The position numbers and the translations under genes are program-made. DNA of 13,679 bases. Origin: Actinobacteria bacterium UBA5975. GTDB taxonomy: Bacteria; Actinomycetota; Actinomycetes; Nanopelagicales; Nanopelagicaceae. Under the pieces are notes generated by a model. It made no database searches, was not told the DNA's origin, and saw nothing but the letters and a program-made list of their open reading frames with translations. Each line of letters starts with the position of its first letter. Position 1 is the stretch's first letter. The stretch is taken from contig DJBN01000007.1 of assembly GCA_002430075.1 (NCBI GenBank), positions 1 through 13,679 on the forward strand. The letters run 5' to 3'. Below, in pieces: positions 14 through 13,679 of this stretch.

Positions 14-595
14 GAGGCAGCTGCCGAAAGCGGAATCACAATCATCTCAGCCATCTCTCAGCTCCCTCCAGCCAGGGTTGCTCAAATGCACGGCTATGCA
101 AAGACCACTCGAGTTTTGTGGTCACCCAATATCACTCTCGGCATCAACTTCATGATCGTTGCGGCAAAGACGTTGCAACAGATCGCACCTCATGCTGACA
201 TTTCCATTCTTGAAGAACACTTTAAAGCAAAGCCCGAAATTTCAGGAACAGCTAGGAAGATCTCACAAGCCCTTAACTTGGACCCCAGTGAAGTCAAAGT
301 TATTCGCGCAGGCGGAATTATTGGAGTCCACGAAATCCTCTTTGGTTTTCCATTCCAAACTGTGCGCCTTAAGCATGAATCAATCTCGCGAGAAGCTTTT
401 GGTAATGGAGCAAAGTTCGCTCTTCAGGAATTGAGCAAGCGTGACGTAGGCTTTTACAACATGGAAGAGCTAGTCGGAAGCATCTTTGTTAATGCCAATG
501 TGCATTACACGGACGGATCTACGCCTATTGCTAAGGCTCTTACCGTACGCGATCGCGCTCGACTGCTGAAGAGGGCCATTAGCCGTAAATCGTAG
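14..595 (+). CDS. DapB-like dihydrodipicolinate reductase family protein (5' partial)
   Basis: The reading frame is open to the left edge, so the N-terminal NAD(P)-binding part is mostly missing. What remains resembles the end of the Rossmann domain and the substrate-binding C-terminal domain of 4-hydroxy-tetrahydrodipicolinate reductase (lysine/diaminopimelate pathway). There is an ESGITIISAISQLPPARV stretch, then WSPNITLGINF (family pattern apNfSiGvn), then a GVHEILFGFPFQTVRLKHES block followed by SREAFGNGAKFA, the usual DapB C-terminal signature. The catalytic loop is degenerate. Canonical enzymes have E-HH-x2-K-x-DAPSGTA, but here it reads EEHFKAKPEISGTA, so the second histidine is Phe and the DAP stretch is altered. 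This may be a paralogue acting on a different substrate and not the housekeeping DapB. The decarboxylase gene starts 43 bases downstream on the same strand, so co-transcription is possible. Confidence 0.75.
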   Translation, partial: EAAAESGITIISAISQLPPARVAQMHGYAKTTRVLWSPNITLGINFMIVAAKTLQQIAPHADISILEEHFKAKPEISGTARKISQALNLDPSEVKVIRAGGIIGVHEILFGFPFQTVRLKHESISREAFGNGAKFALQELSKRDVGFYNMEELVGSIFVNANVHYTDGSTPIAKALTVRDRARLLKRAISRKS

Positions 596-638
596 GCAGT
601 CCAAAGCGGTGACTCCTTTTCTGTGAGAAACTTCGTGA

Positions 639-1985
639 GTGCATGAATTCACACAAGAGGTAGAAGAGCTTGCGAAGGCTGTGATGACCTATAGCCTCGA
701 GCGGTTGAAATCTAATCCACCCCTTGATGGACCTCGAAGTGAGAAAGATTTATATCAAGAGCTCGGTAACACAATCACCGCTGGTGGACTTGGCGGCAGA
801 AAAACTCTCGATATCTTTACGCAGACGCTCGCTCTTGCCTGTATATCAACAGATCATCCGCGCAACTTGGCCTTTATTCCTTCAGCACCCAGCGAATATT
901 CAAACCTCTTCGACTTAGTTGTCGGCGCATCATCTCTCTACGGAGGATCATGGCAAGAAGGCGCCGGCGCTGTCTTTGCCGAAAATCAAGCGCTCAAATG
1001 GCTTATCGATATAGCGGGCTTGCCAGAAAGAGCTGGGGGAGTCTTTGTTCAAGGCGGCACAATAGGCAATCTTTCAGCCCTGGTTGTTGCTCGCGATCAA
1101 GCGCGAAAGAAGTTTCCTGATACAGCGCGCTGGGTGATTGCCTGCAGCGCAGAATCTCACTCATCTATTACATCGGCTGCGCACGTGATGGATGTAGATA
1201 TTTTGAAGATTGAAACTAATGAAGAACTACGCCTTGATGGCGCACACGTTGGGCCAGCTATTGATGACCTGCATGCAACAACTAATAGACGCGTCTTTGC
1301 AATCGTTGGAACTGCCGGCAGTACCAATCTAGGAATTGTTGATGATTTAGCAACGCTGGCAACAACTGCCAAAGAACGCGATATCTGGTTCCATGTCGAT
1401 GGCGCCTATGGGCTAGCGGGGCTCTGCGCGCCATCTGTTCGTCACCTCTTTAACGGTGTTGAAAGCGCTGATTCATTTATCGTCGACCCTCATAAATGGC
1501 TCTTTGCACCATTTGATGCATGCGCACTTGTCTATCGCAATCCAGAGCTTGCAAAAGAGACTCATACTCAACACGCTTCATACCTTGAAACTCTTCACGA
1601 CGATTCGTGGTCGCCATCTGATTATGCAATTCACTTAACTCGTCGAGTTCGTGGGCTGCCTTTCTGGTTCTCACTTGCAGCCCACGGCACCAATGCATAT
1701 GCCGAAGCAGTTGAAACCGGAATTCGTCTTGCAAAAGATTCCGCAGCATTGATCAAAGCTCACCCTAATCTCGAACTTGTCTGCCAACCCGAACTTTCAA
1801 TCGTCGCTTTTACCAGAACTGGGTGGAGCCCAGGGCAGTATCAAGAGTGGTCCGATGCGTTGCTTGAAAAACAGATCGGTTTTATTCCACCTTCCAAACA
1901 TGCAGGCGAATCCATCTTGCGCTTTGCCTTTGTTAACCCTTGGACTTCAATGGCCGATGTCCAAATGATTCTTGAGACTTTGTAA
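639..1985 (+). CDS. Group II pyridoxal-phosphate-dependent amino acid decarboxylase
   Basis: This 448-residue protein belongs to the glutamate/aromatic/diaminobutyrate decarboxylase family (fold type I PLP enzymes), which removes the alpha-carboxylate of an amino acid to give an amine. The PLP lysine is K286 in IVDPHKWLFAPFDA. The aspartate that contacts the pyridine nitrogen is D254 in FHVDGAYGLAG, and the ring-stacking histidine is likely H174 in AESHSS. GTAGSTNLGIVDDL (224-237) is the usual preceding block. The length is normal for short bacterial members. The start is GTG at 639, because TGA lies in frame just upstream at 636-638, and no strong ribosome binding site is visible. The substrate cannot be told from sequence: aromatic amino acids, glutamate and diaminobutyrate are all possible. 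It converges on the agmatinase gene with 2 bases between stop codons, which hints at amine metabolism but proves nothing. Confidence 0.9.
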   Translation: MHEFTQEVEELAKAVMTYSLERLKSNPPLDGPRSEKDLYQELGNTITAGGLGGRKTLDIFTQTLALACISTDHPRNLAFIPSAPSEYSNLFDLVVGASSLYGGSWQEGAGAVFAENQALKWLIDIAGLPERAGGVFVQGGTIGNLSALVVARDQARKKFPDTARWVIACSAESHSSITSAAHVMDVDILKIETNEELRLDGAHVGPAIDDLHATTNRRVFAIVGTAGSTNLGIVDDLATLATTAKERDIWFHVDGAYGLAGLCAPSVRHLFNGVESADSFIVDPHKWLFAPFDACALVYRNPELAKETHTQHASYLETLHDDSWSPSDYAIHLTRRVRGLPFWFSLAAHGTNAYAEAVETGIRLAKDSAALIKAHPNLELVCQPELSIVAFTRTGWSPGQYQEWSDALLEKQIGFIPPSKHAGESILRFAFVNPWTSMADVQMILETL

Positions 1986-6164: not shown

Positions 6165-6287
6165 ATAGTCTATAGATTTTCCTCACTCATGCCTGCAAGT
6201 GCAGGTAAATCGAGCTTAATTGAATCAAACCTCAGGATTTTCACAGACTCTTACCACTAGAATTTCAAGGTAACGATTGGAGTGGTT

Positions 6288-6713
6288 ATGCAACTGTGGA
6301 TGTGGCTTGCGCTATCTGGAATTCTCGTCGTTGTTGAGATATTAACTGTCGATCTACTTTTCGCATCTTTAGCTTTCTCCACTCTTATGGCAGCAATTGC
6401 TAATGCCTTTGGCCTCAATGGCGGTTCGCAGGGAGCCATCTTCGCTATTGCGGCAGCGCTATCACTCTTTGTCTTACGTCCTATTGCGATGAAACATCTT
6501 AAGAAGAGGCCGGCAGATTTTGCTACCAATATGGAAGCGCTTATTGGCGCATCAGCAATTGCCTTAAGTGAGATTACAGATAATTCAGGGCAGATAAAGC
6601 TCAACGGCGAAGTCTGGAGCGCTCGTAGCGAAGCTGGAGCTATTGCCACAGATGCACATCTACAAGTTGTATCCATTGACGGTGCTACCGCAGTGGTCAA
6701 GAAGAGGGGTTAA
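6288..6713 (+). CDS. nfeD: Short NfeD-like membrane protein, copy 1
   Basis: This 141-residue protein belongs to the short NfeD class, which lacks the ClpP-like protease domain. The N-terminal half is hydrophobic (about residues 4-67, two to three membrane helices, with the conserved EILTVDLLFASLAF segment). A C-terminal OB-fold of about 55 residues (EALIGASAIA to AVVKKRG) contains GQIKLNGEVWSARS, the typical NfeD strand pair. These proteins partner SPFH/stomatin proteins in the membrane, and the SPFH gene here follows directly. ATG 6288 is preferred over GTG 6282 because GGAG (6279-6282) sits 5 bases before the ATG and the paralogue at 11144 begins at the same point (MPIWMWLA against MQLWMWLA). 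It shares about 89 of 141 residues with that paralogue. Confidence 0.88.
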   Translation: MQLWMWLALSGILVVVEILTVDLLFASLAFSTLMAAIANAFGLNGGSQGAIFAIAAALSLFVLRPIAMKHLKKRPADFATNMEALIGASAIALSEITDNSGQIKLNGEVWSARSEAGAIATDAHLQVVSIDGATAVVKKRG

Positions 6714-6715
6714 TG

Positions 6716-7585
6716 ATGTTTACTTATTCAAGCGGGGTACTCGTTCTGCTCGTCTCACTCTTTGCAGTGGTTCTAGCTCGCTCAATTCGAATCGTGCCTC
6801 AAGCCAGCGCCGGAATCGTTGAACGTCTCGGCCGCTATCACAAGACTCTAGGCGCAGGTCTTGCAATCATCATTCCCTTTATTGACCGGTTACGCCCACT
6901 CATTGATTTGCGCGAACGCGTAGTTTCTTTCCCACCACAGCCGGTAATCACTGAAGATAACTTGGTCGTCTCAATCGATACCGTTATTTACTTTCAGGTA
7001 ACAGATCCAAAGTCTGCAACGTATGAAATTGAAAACTATATCCAAGGTATTGAACAGCTCACCGTGACCACCCTACGTAACGTAGTCGGTGGCCTTGATC
7101 TTGAAGCCACCCTTACCTCCCGAGATTCAATCAATGCGGCCCTACGTGGTGTTCTCGATGATGCCACGGGCAAGTGGGGAGTTCGCGTTAATCGAGTTGA
7201 ACTTAAGGCAATTGATCCACCACCAAGTGTTCAAGAATCTATGGAGAAGCAGATGCGCGCCGAGCGAGATAAGCGTGCTGTGATTTTGACTGCAGAAGGT
7301 GAAAAGCAGAGTCAGATTTTGACTGCCGAAGGTGCTCGCCAAGCAGAAATTTTACGCGCCGATGGTGATGCACAAGCTGCTGTTCTTCGGGCGGAAGGTG
7401 AGGCTGCAGCAATCAAGAAGGTATTCGGAGCAGTACACGAGGCAAATCCAGATGAGAAAGTACTTGCCTACCAATATCTACAGCAGCTACCTGCTATCGC
7501 TAACGGAACCGCTAGCAAGATATGGGTCATCCCTGCTGAGCTAAGCGGAGCTGCCGAACAGATTGTTAAGGCGTTTAAGAAGTAA
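6716..7585 (+). CDS. SPFH/stomatin-like (QmcA/HflK-type) protein, copy 1
   Basis: This 289-residue SPFH-domain protein has an N-terminal membrane helix (about 6-22), a band-7 domain (RIVPQASAGIVERLGRYHKT through KAIDPPPSVQESM) and a helical tail. The tail holds four tandem 11-residue repeats at 190-233 (ILTAEGEKQSQ, ILTAEGARQAE, ILRADGDAQAA, VLRAEGEAAAI), as in other stomatins that oligomerise by coiled coil. Such proteins build ring assemblies or membrane microdomains and may control proteases. The specific client is unknown. ATG 6713 overlaps the nfeD stop (TAATG). ATG 6716 is preferred, since AGGGG at 6705-6709 is 6 bases away and the paralogue starts at the equivalent residue. It is co-translated with nfeD. 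The paralogue at 11573 differs at about 28 of 289 positions. Confidence 0.93.
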   Translation: MFTYSSGVLVLLVSLFAVVLARSIRIVPQASAGIVERLGRYHKTLGAGLAIIIPFIDRLRPLIDLRERVVSFPPQPVITEDNLVVSIDTVIYFQVTDPKSATYEIENYIQGIEQLTVTTLRNVVGGLDLEATLTSRDSINAALRGVLDDATGKWGVRVNRVELKAIDPPPSVQESMEKQMRAERDKRAVILTAEGEKQSQILTAEGARQAEILRADGDAQAAVLRAEGEAAAIKKVFGAVHEANPDEKVLAYQYLQQLPAIANGTASKIWVIPAELSGAAEQIVKAFKK

Positions 7586-11143: not shown

Positions 11144-11569
11144 ATGCCGATATGGATGTGGCTTGCTGCAGGTGGAGCGCTTCTCGTTGCCGAAATGCTC
11201 ACTGTTGATCTTCTCTTTGCTTCACTAGCTTTCTCGGCATTTATGGCAGCAGGGGTCAATGCGCTCGGTTTTAATATGGCAGTGCAGGGTTTCACCTTCG
11301 GCCTTGCTGCAGTAATCTCGCTTTTTATTCTGCGCCCTATTGCGTTGAAGAATTTAAAGAAAAGAACACCAGATTTTGCAACAAATGTTGATGCCTTAGT
11401 GGGCGTTCCTGCATTAACAATTTCAGTGGTTACAGATCGCTCCGGCCAGATCAAACTCAATGGCGAAATCTGGAGCGCTCGCAGCCAATCTGGAGAAATT
11501 GCTGAAGATTCTAAGGTTCAGGTAGTTGCAATCGAAGGCGCCACTGCAGTGGTCAATCAGAAGGGTTAA
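11144..11569 (+). CDS. nfeD: Short NfeD-like membrane protein, copy 2
   Basis: This is a 141-residue paralogue of the protein at 6288, of identical length and with about 63% identical residues. It has the same hydrophobic N-terminal half containing EMLTVDLLFASLAFS and the same C-terminal OB-fold with SGQIKLNGEIWSARS. Differences concentrate in the loop between the membrane helices (LGFNMAVQGFTF) and in the last 40 residues of the OB-fold, which would be the surface that meets partners. The start is ATG 11144, with AGGAG at 11132-11136 and a 7-base spacer. Stop and next start are separated by 3 bases, so it is translationally linked to the SPFH gene. The upstream region resembles that of copy 1 only over a few bases, so the two operons may be regulated differently. 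Confidence 0.88.
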   Translation: MPIWMWLAAGGALLVAEMLTVDLLFASLAFSAFMAAGVNALGFNMAVQGFTFGLAAVISLFILRPIALKNLKKRTPDFATNVDALVGVPALTISVVTDRSGQIKLNGEIWSARSQSGEIAEDSKVQVVAIEGATAVVNQKG

Positions 11570-11572
11570 TCA

Positions 11573-12442
11573 ATGATCTCATATTCTTTCGGAGTCCTAG
11601 CACTGCTCGTTATTATTTTTGGCGTAATCCTTGCCAAATCTATCCGAATAATTCCACAAGCCAGTTCAGGATTAGTCGAGCGCCTAGGCCGGTATCACCG
11701 AACTCTTGGTGCAGGCCTCGCAATTATTATTCCTTTTGTTGATCGACTACGCCCTCTGATTGATATGCGCGAGCGAGTTATATCATTTCCACCGCAGCCA
11801 GTAATTACTGAGGACAACTTAGTTGTTTCAATTGATACAGTTATTTATTTTCAGGTCACAGATCCAAAATCTGCGACCTATGAGATTGAAGATGTCATTC
11901 AAGGTATTGAACAATTAACAGTTACAACTTTACGTAACGTTGTTGGTGGCCTTGATCTCGAGGCAGCTTTAACTTCTCGTGACTCGATTAACACTGCCCT
12001 TCGCGGAGTTTTAGATGAAGCCACGGGTAAGTGGGGAGTTCGCGTTAACCGGGTAGAGCTAAAGGCAATTGACCCACCTCCAAGCGTGCAAGAGTCGATG
12101 GAAAAGCAGATGCGTGCCGAGCGTGACAAGCGCGCTGTAATTTTGACTGCCGAAGGTGAAAAGCAGAGCCAAATTCTTACAGCAGAAGGTGAGCGTCAAG
12201 CAGAGATTCTGCGAGCAGAAGGCGATGCGCAAGCTGCAATTCTTCGGGCCGATGGCGAGGCTGCTGCAATTAAGAAAGTTTTCGGTGCGGTCCACGATGC
12301 CAACCCTGACGAAAAAGTCCTGGCCTATCAATACCTGCAGCAACTACCTGCCATCGCTAATGGAAGCGCGAGTAAAATCTGGGTTATTCCAGCTGAGCTC
12401 AGCGGCGCAGCAGAGCAGATTATGAAAGCCTTTAAAAAATAG
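11573..12442 (+). CDS. SPFH/stomatin-like protein, copy 2
   Basis: This 289-residue protein is colinear with the one at 6716 and about 90% identical, with no insertions or deletions. It has the same membrane helix, band-7 domain and four 11-residue tail repeats (ILTAEGEKQSQ, ILTAEGERQAE, ILRAEGDAQAA, ILRADGEAAAI). Differences cluster in the N-terminal membrane segment (10 of the first 27 residues), and most others are conservative. Codon third positions differ often even where the protein is identical: about 10 of 25 codons around 12118-12192. The pair is therefore an old duplication under strong protein-level constraint, and not a recent copy. Hetero-oligomers of the two copies are possible. 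The start is ATG 11573, with AAGGG 7 bases upstream. A GC-rich terminator hairpin follows the stop. Confidence 0.93.
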   Translation: MISYSFGVLALLVIIFGVILAKSIRIIPQASSGLVERLGRYHRTLGAGLAIIIPFVDRLRPLIDMRERVISFPPQPVITEDNLVVSIDTVIYFQVTDPKSATYEIEDVIQGIEQLTVTTLRNVVGGLDLEAALTSRDSINTALRGVLDEATGKWGVRVNRVELKAIDPPPSVQESMEKQMRAERDKRAVILTAEGEKQSQILTAEGERQAEILRAEGDAQAAILRADGEAAAIKKVFGAVHDANPDEKVLAYQYLQQLPAIANGSASKIWVIPAELSGAAEQIMKAFKK

Positions 12443-12507: not shown

Positions 12508-13679
12508 TCATTTTAATTTCCCTCGCCAAGCACTGAAAGATCGCACCGATTTCTCATGAGGTAAGCGTAACCATGGGTATGGATGCACCTGTGCAAGATT
12601 CTGAAATTTTCTAAAACTTGGGACCGGGGCATAAGTCACGGCAACTGCGGTATCGCGTGCAAATTGATAAGGATCACCAAGATAAACAGTTAGATCTCGT
12701 CGCTCTGTCAAATCGCGCAAACTCTCTAAGTAAAAATAAATTCGCTTTGATGACAGTTGCAACTTAGCGAGTGCTTGCTCATTAAAAACAAATACAACTG
12801 GAAGCTCTGGATGGGCAACCAGCGCAGGGTCGCCATCTCCTAGCGAATCAACGGTTAATAAAACTGTGGTTGCCGGCTTCTTGCCTTCAGTAATCAGTGG
12901 CCCGGTCGTCGCGGCAAGATCTGGATCTGAAAGTAGCAAGCCCTCTAACGGGGCCGAATCTAATGAAATCTCATCAGGAAAATTCTCAATCGGGCATTTA
13001 CTTTTTAGGGGACAGTTTGCACACAACTGCGGCGCACGCTTCTGTACTTGCCATCGTGCAAAGCCATACGGCTTTCCAGTTCCACTACCAACTGCCCACT
13101 GCCACCCCAACAAATTTGCTGCCCGTGAACCATCAATTAAGTGGCGATACATAGCTTCTTGACCGTGCAACCAGCCAAACTCATTGCGCACAGTCCAGTG
13201 CGATGCCAGCCACATGCGACTTTGATTAACCAACCAGCCATCTTCCTCTAATTCATTGGTGGCAAAATCAACACAGGCCATACCTTTGGGCCAGCCATCA
13301 CCAGGCCTATCTGAAATTTGTTCAAAACGGAGATTTTGAAATAGCCGGACGCCGATTCGCGCATATAAATGTCTCGCATATTCTTGCCACAACAACTCAT
13401 CACGGTATTTTTCACGATCGCCAAATGGCGCCTTAGCCACGTGATCCCATACTCGCTGCAGTGGAAGCAGATTGTGGCGAATGTAAGGTGAGAGAACCGA
13501 CGCCCCACGATTGGCAAGTGGCAATACCTCTGATCTATTTTTGGTATAGCCTGAAATGTTTAACTCACTTAGCCTCTGATCTGCTGCGCTCTGCCCACCG
13601 GGAATTCGACTTCGCCCTCCACCTGAGTGCAGAGATTTAAAGTCTTGCGAAACGATGCTCTCCAAATCGGCGTTGATAT
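12508..13679 (-). CDS. FeS-type photolyase/cryptochrome-like flavoprotein with permuted domains (5' partial)
   Basis: The frame stays open past the in-frame TTG at 13665 to the right edge, so the N-terminus is probably outside the window. Numbered from that TTG, residues about 20-235 form the FAD-binding helical domain: RGASVLSPYIRHNLL (53-67), RDELLWQEYARHLY (88-101), WLVNQSRMWLASHW and HLIDGSRAANLLGWQWAVGS, all photolyase FAD-site blocks. Four cysteines, C131, C215, C218 and C224 (C-x83-C-x2-C-x5-C, ending CPI), match the [4Fe-4S] ligand arrangement of bacterial FeS photolyases such as PhrB/CryB. Residues about 255-385 look like the Rossmann photolyase domain: TVLLTVDSLGDGDPALVAHP, SKRIYFYLESLRDL and LTVYLGDP. 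Normally that domain comes first, so the order is reversed. Likely activity is blue-light DNA repair or sensing. The DNA lesion and antenna pigment are unknown. Confidence 0.8.
   Translation of the reverse strand, partial: INADLESIVSQDFKSLHSGGGRSRIPGGQSAADQRLSELNISGYTKNRSEVLPLANRGASVLSPYIRHNLLPLQRVWDHVAKAPFGDREKYRDELLWQEYARHLYARIGVRLFQNLRFEQISDRPGDGWPKGMACVDFATNELEEDGWLVNQSRMWLASHWTVRNEFGWLHGQEAMYRHLIDGSRAANLLGWQWAVGSGTGKPYGFARWQVQKRAPQLCANCPLKSKCPIENFPDEISLDSAPLEGLLLSDPDLAATTGPLITEGKKPATTVLLTVDSLGDGDPALVAHPELPVVFVFNEQALAKLQLSSKRIYFYLESLRDLTERRDLTVYLGDPYQFARDTAVAVTYAPVPSFRKFQNLAQVHPYPWLRLPHEKSVRSFSAWRGKLK

Follow-up and report, generated by a model that had tools for sequence, protein, structure and literature searches.

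A probable iron-sulfur photolyase with reversed domain order at a contig edge in Actinobacteria bacterium UBA5975

Gene extent at the contig edge

The stretch of DNA analysed here (the window) comprises 13,679 nucleotides of Actinobacteria bacterium UBA5975 (Nanopelagicaceae; contig DJBN01000007.1, or C93 of its assembly, which measures 1.22 Mb and is 82.75% complete), and its final part holds a photolyase-like gene in which the flavin adenine dinucleotide (FAD) domain comes first. The minus-strand frame 13677..12508 runs for 389 codons and is open at the contig end, where the window cuts the 5′ end of the gene:

12508..13677, minus strand: photolyase gene of reversed order; the window holds its TGA stop and 389 of its 394 codons, and the ATG is just past the contig edge

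The same 389 residues are encoded, at 100% identity, by locus L003 (contig DFDL01000048.1, titled Actinobacteria bacterium UBA3028), in which a TAA is followed by an ATG, four further codons and then the frame of the window, giving a full protein of 394 amino acids (aa). Since this in-frame TAA stands directly before the ATG, no domain lies ahead of the FAD domain, and the loss of an upstream Rossmann domain, for which the initial annotation had proposed to look, is ruled out by the full gene. Homologues in two genomes of the same genus lie in open reading frames 396 and 395 aa long. Among the best 80 of the 249 stretches encoding a relative, an in-frame upstream stop was found within the locus in 78 cases, the remaining two being cut by a contig end, and none of the 80 loci had a stop codon inside the matched region. 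Ten relatives whose reading frame stays open far upstream were scanned for domains, and FAD_binding_7 alone was returned at E ≤ 0.1. Residues are numbered below in the 389-residue frame, which equals the numbering of the initial annotation (begun at an internal TTG) plus 4; the full protein adds 9.

Immediately upstream of the photolyase start codon in L003, another gene (224-1036, plus strand) comes to its end; its 271-aa product contains two CxxC motifs and matched no Pfam family at E ≤ 0.01. No neighbouring gene was widely common across the 80 loci: the largest neighbour cluster, based on mechanically called open reading frames, covered ten of them at varying distance.

Domain order and predicted fold

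The protein is divided as follows:

12949..13677, minus strand: N-terminal catalytic FAD-binding domain, residues 1-243
12877..12948, minus strand: residues 244-267, lying between the two matched domains
12511..12876, minus strand: residues 268-389, a C-terminal alpha/beta domain corresponding to the N-terminal antenna domain of photolyases

In the structure, which was predicted with confidence (predicted local distance difference test score, pLDDT, 94.2), residues 1-241 superpose on the catalytic halves of photolyases. A separate model of the last 145 residues fits photolyase N-terminal antenna domains best. PhrB heads the structural matches of the FAD domain, and CryB those of the C-terminal domain. 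Profile comparison concurs in identifying the latter as the antenna-domain counterpart. The order first proposed, with the FAD domain before a Rossmann-like domain, is therefore confirmed. With no domain upstream and an antenna-type fold predicted for the C-terminal residues, it withstands both refuting conditions named in the initial annotation.

Profiles were also rearranged to the conventional domain order and scored against the native order and shuffled controls. For the profile built on P0214 (78 sequences), a 440-aa protein named as a probable photolyase of Cyanobium PCC 7001, reordering raised the local score from 160.1 to 186.6 (shuffles at most 164.5) and the global score from 139.3 to 168.3 (shuffles at most 133.2). 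For the profile of the window branch, the global score rose from 111.3 to 119.9 (shuffles at most 102.0); the local score showed no gain (128.2 reordered, 128.3 native; mean 128.2 and maximum 130.3 in 20 shuffles). No clear profile match was obtained between the C-terminal domain of the window protein and the C-terminal part of 60 alphaproteobacterial sequences collected with a Ruegeria query (E 0.066); the latter part gave E 0.0018 (probability 15) against the P0214 set and E 0.24 against conventional N-terminal domains. A Pfam scan found no PF04244 domain in the window protein.

Iron-sulfur cysteines

Conservation was read from an alignment of 57 rows: 52 of the window branch (including the window protein and one row from a metagenome-assembled genome titled Myxococcota), two from Deinococcus and three alphaproteobacterial. 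Four cysteines are placed as putative 4Fe-4S ligands:

13273..13275, minus strand: C135, putative ligand 1 (Cys in 55 of 57 aligned)
13021..13023, minus strand: C219, putative ligand 2 (54 of 57)
13012..13014, minus strand: C222, putative ligand 3 (54 of 57)
12994..12996, minus strand: C228, putative ligand 4 (54 of 57)

All the rows without the four cysteines are alphaproteobacterial. Scored as C-x(80-90)-C-x2-C-x(4-6)-C, the pattern was present in 52/52 window-branch sequences and in 109 of the 120 matches listed for a Deinococcus query; it was absent from all 120 matches listed for the Ruegeria query and from 17 conventional photolyases. Counted per ligand position in the alignment, Cys stands in 120, 118, 120 and 119 of the 120 matches listed for the Deinococcus query, and the Ruegeria-query matches listed (P0241-P0360) retain Cys at position 135 in 106 of 120, with the other three ligands absent throughout. 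This leftover cysteine may be the trace of a lost cluster.

The spacing in the window protein is 84/3/6. Phr4 has 85/3/6 (C169, C254, C257 and C263; PMC9426592), and the FeS-BCPs L120 and L121 of the window's own genus have 88/3/13, so the closer match is with the reversed-order family. The likeness to iron-sulfur (FeS) bacterial photolyases that had been proposed thus holds roughly for the first gap (84 against 88) and fails for the last (6 against 13).

Active site and flavin-site changes

Residues were mapped through a printed alignment to the Escherichia coli photolyase (1dnp), profile positions being assigned to residues of the window protein by matching letters:

13387..13398, minus strand: E94..W97, matching E274 and W277 of the E. 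coli enzyme in 1dnp (E94 and W97 invariant in 57 aligned)
13384..13386, minus strand: Q98, at the place of E. coli R278 / Synechococcus R287 (Gln in all 52 branch sequences; the other 5 aligned rows have Arg)
13213..13227, minus strand: N151..M155, matching N341 and M345 of the E. coli enzyme (N151 invariant, M155 in 56 of 57)
13171..13173, minus strand: W169, counterpart of E. coli W359 (invariant in 57)
13126..13128, minus strand: S184, at the place of E. coli D374 / Synechococcus D382 (Ser in all 52 branch sequences; the other 5 aligned rows have Asp)
13096..13116, minus strand: N188, W192 and W194, counterparts of E. coli N378, W382 and W384 (invariant in 57)

We assume for the E. coli residues (E274, W277, N341, M345, W359, N378, W382 and W384) the functional roles generally attributed to them. 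Judged by its residues, the predicted lesion pocket is of the type that accepts cyclobutane pyrimidine dimers (CPDs). E. coli W306 falls in an insertion and has no counterpart in the window protein, which leaves a Trp pair (W192, W169) and not a triad; a Trp dyad is described for the NewPHL protein of D. shibae (PMC8948257).

The branch departs from its relatives at the flavin site. Arg and Asp are kept at the places of Q98 and S184 in both Deinococcus rows and all three alphaproteobacterial rows, and the corresponding Synechococcus R287 and D382 are listed as flavin-binding (PMC9426592). Further, Q152 is found in 52/52 of the branch, and position 150 is Val in 50/52 and Thr in 2/52; the FeS-BCP L120 has His-His at the places of V150-N151. 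A patchily distributed branch with invariant Gln and Ser instead of the flavin-site Arg and Asp of the relatives compared is possibly new.

Relatives and distribution

A database search returned 3503 proteins at E ≤ 0.001 among 7999 candidates scored, a figure in which other photolyases are probably counted. The window branch itself is patchy, with matches at E ≤ 1e-30 in 20/296 genomes of the phylum and close homologues in 3/37 genomes of the genus (own genome included in both counts; many of the genus genomes are incomplete). According to record titles, the sources of relatives include lakes Baikal and Pavin; relatives also occur in genera such as Cryobacterium and Patulibacter, which we do not think of as lake plankton. 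A search for named relatives on plasmids matched 132 records, in two of which the match covered 80% or more of the query; six sequences were retrieved and five of them used.

FAD-domain trees were built on subsets (13 sequences of the branch, 12 Deinococcus-query, 9 alphaproteobacterial and 6 conventional), the second tree adding three PF04244 proteins. The window branch and the Deinococcus-query set that contains P0214 were joined with support 100 in the first tree and 91 in the second, and the window branch alone received 67 and 100. P0214 falls in its sister set. The grouping of both with the alphaproteobacterial set was weak (support 69, second tree).

PF04244 was found in 12/60 genomes of the class, and no PF04244 protein was found in the window's own genome as assembled (82.75% complete). 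A filter kept three full proteins from these 12 loci (L119-L130): L120 and L121 are conventional FeS-BCP photolyases from two other genomes of the genus, and L119 lacks the FeS cysteines.

Four relatives of the reversed-order photolyase of Deinococcus (P0156, P0158, P0159 and P0160; 63-65% identity to it) are 688-709 aa long, and their precomputed domains include PF03167, which we take to be uracil-DNA glycosylase. They perhaps represent a fusion of direct-reversal and base-excision repair.

Other genes in the window

Two gene pairs, each coding for an NfeD-like and an SPFH (stomatin-like) protein, are located on the plus strand with their starts 4.9 kb apart:

6282..7585, plus strand: first NfeD-like/SPFH pair
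11144..12442, plus strand: second NfeD-like/SPFH pair, the pair scanned (Pfam NfeD and Band_7 found)

The proteins of the two pairs are 63% and 90% identical.

Proposed function and alternative explanations

We consider the gene to encode a complete reversed-order, that is, domain-level circularly permuted, FeS photolyase of the SPL/Phr6 kind (probability roughly 0.78), with light-driven CPD repair as its most likely job. The N-terminal helical domain would bind FAD and the 4Fe-4S cluster; blue or near-ultraviolet (UV) light would excite FADH-, which would then split a CPD flipped into the pocket formed by E94, W97, N151, M155 and W194, and the flavin would be re-reduced by the Trp pair W192 and W169. 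The C-terminal Rossmann-like domain may do what the antenna domain does at the N terminus of other photolyases: it would cap the FAD site and might also bind an antenna. By analogy with NewPHL, single-stranded DNA would perhaps be preferred. Two caveats attach to the C-terminal alpha/beta domain: the window protein falls below detection by Pfam PF00875, and Foldseek, taken alone, is weak for this domain.

That the gene is a truncated conventional photolyase, its N-terminal domain lost at the contig edge and its tail unrelated, would agree with the cut 5′ end, but is extremely improbable given the complete copy in L003, the upstream stop in 78 of the 80 relatives' loci and the match of the C-terminal domain to photolyase antenna domains. 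A function as blue-light receptor of aquatic actinobacteria, with DNA repair lost, would fit both the patchy distribution within the genus and the substitutions that the branch shows in or close to the FAD/lesion site (Q98, Q152 and S184 in all its sequences, V150 in most). It appears very unlikely, as none of the 57 aligned sequences departs from E94, W97, N151, N188, W192 or W194, the protein has no extra domain, no neighbour gene is widely conserved and relatives occur in genera that are presumably not lake plankton; the CPD-type pocket would likewise make dimer repair likelier than the light response suggested by the initial annotation. Repair of (6-4) photoproducts by a reversed-order FeS enzyme, an activity predicted for Phr6 and Phr4/Phr5 (PMC9426592), is somewhat less remote but still unlikely: the His-His pair of the FeS-BCP L120 corresponds to V150-N151, the Met at position 155 is shared with the E. 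coli CPD photolyase, and SPL proteins are described as CPD-repairing (PMC9649867).

Beyond the preferred assignment as a CPD-repairing photolyase, there is a modest chance that the branch is functionally separate, with Q98/S184 and V150/Q152 shifting the flavin redox properties or the substrate (e.g., towards another single-stranded nucleic acid, or sensing), and that SPL proteins described as lacking an alpha/beta domain carry it C-terminally.

Reversed-order photolyases are relevant to the origin of the photolyase/cryptochrome family. SPL has been proposed as the ancestral form and is described without an antenna-type domain, whose counterpart the window family shows at the other end; if SPL proteins do carry a C-terminal alpha/beta domain, the proposal that the family originated before the domain was gained would be undercut. 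The branch-wide flavin-site departures offer a concrete mutational test of the contacts needed for photorepair; these substitutions, together with an alpha/beta domain in a kind elsewhere described as lacking one, are the points most worth specialist time. The patchy occurrence in small-genome actinobacteria with lake relatives might also bear on strain differences in UV tolerance.

Comparison with known systems

FeS-BCPs, or prokaryotic (6-4) photolyases (PhrB, CryB), share the FeS cysteines in the FAD domain with the window protein, but differ in their opposite domain order, PF04244 domain, 88/3/13 spacing and His-His pair. The conventional photolyase of the window's own genome (contig C58; assumed to be class I) is homologous in its FAD domain (E 2.4e-14) and has the Asn-Met and Trp positions of the E. 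coli enzyme, whereas its domain order is conventional with a PF00875 domain, and it lacks FeS cysteines. An uncharacterised cpf2 is mentioned for the freshwater actinobacterium Rhodoluna lacicola (PMC8591293).

Reversed-order proteins have been published under the names SPL, NewPHL and Phr6. Phr6 and the split Phr4/Phr5 of Cyanobium and marine Synechococcus have, like the window protein, the FAD domain first and the photolyase domain second, with four FeS cysteines, the Phr4 spacing differing from ours by one residue; Phr7 is described in the same publication as a FAD domain plus Z-domain without FeS cysteines (PMC9426592). Cyanobium PCC 7001 is named there as a Phr6 strain, and by this strain name only P0214 is taken as Phr6. 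The C-terminal domains of the two sides align at E 2.1e-21, but the window protein belongs to a separate branch, is shorter (394 against 440 aa) and has Q98 and S184 instead of Arg and Asp. Unlike the split Phr4/Phr5, it is one gene with no frameshift split.

The SPL member of Rhodococcus fascians is reportedly an FeS/FAD CPD photolyase. SPL proteins (Xu et al. 2021) resemble the window protein in being short, with a CPD-photolyase-like FAD domain and an FeS cluster, but are described as having no alpha/beta antenna-type domain, the counterpart of which the window protein carries at its C terminus (PMC9649867, PMC9178010). NewPHL (Emmerich et al. 2020) agrees in its inverted topology, short length, lack of an upstream domain and Trp pair (the D. 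shibae dyad) (PMC13274461, PMC9426592, PMC8948257), whereas in all 120 Ruegeria-query matches listed, here treated as NewPHL-like, three of the four cysteines are missing. In NewPHL the inverted topology goes with a Z-domain; the profile comparison of the C-terminal parts gave no clear match to it (E 0.066). The separate new family envisaged by the initial annotation is therefore not sustained: the window protein is a member of a mostly actinobacterial branch within a published group, the FeS photolyases of reversed order.
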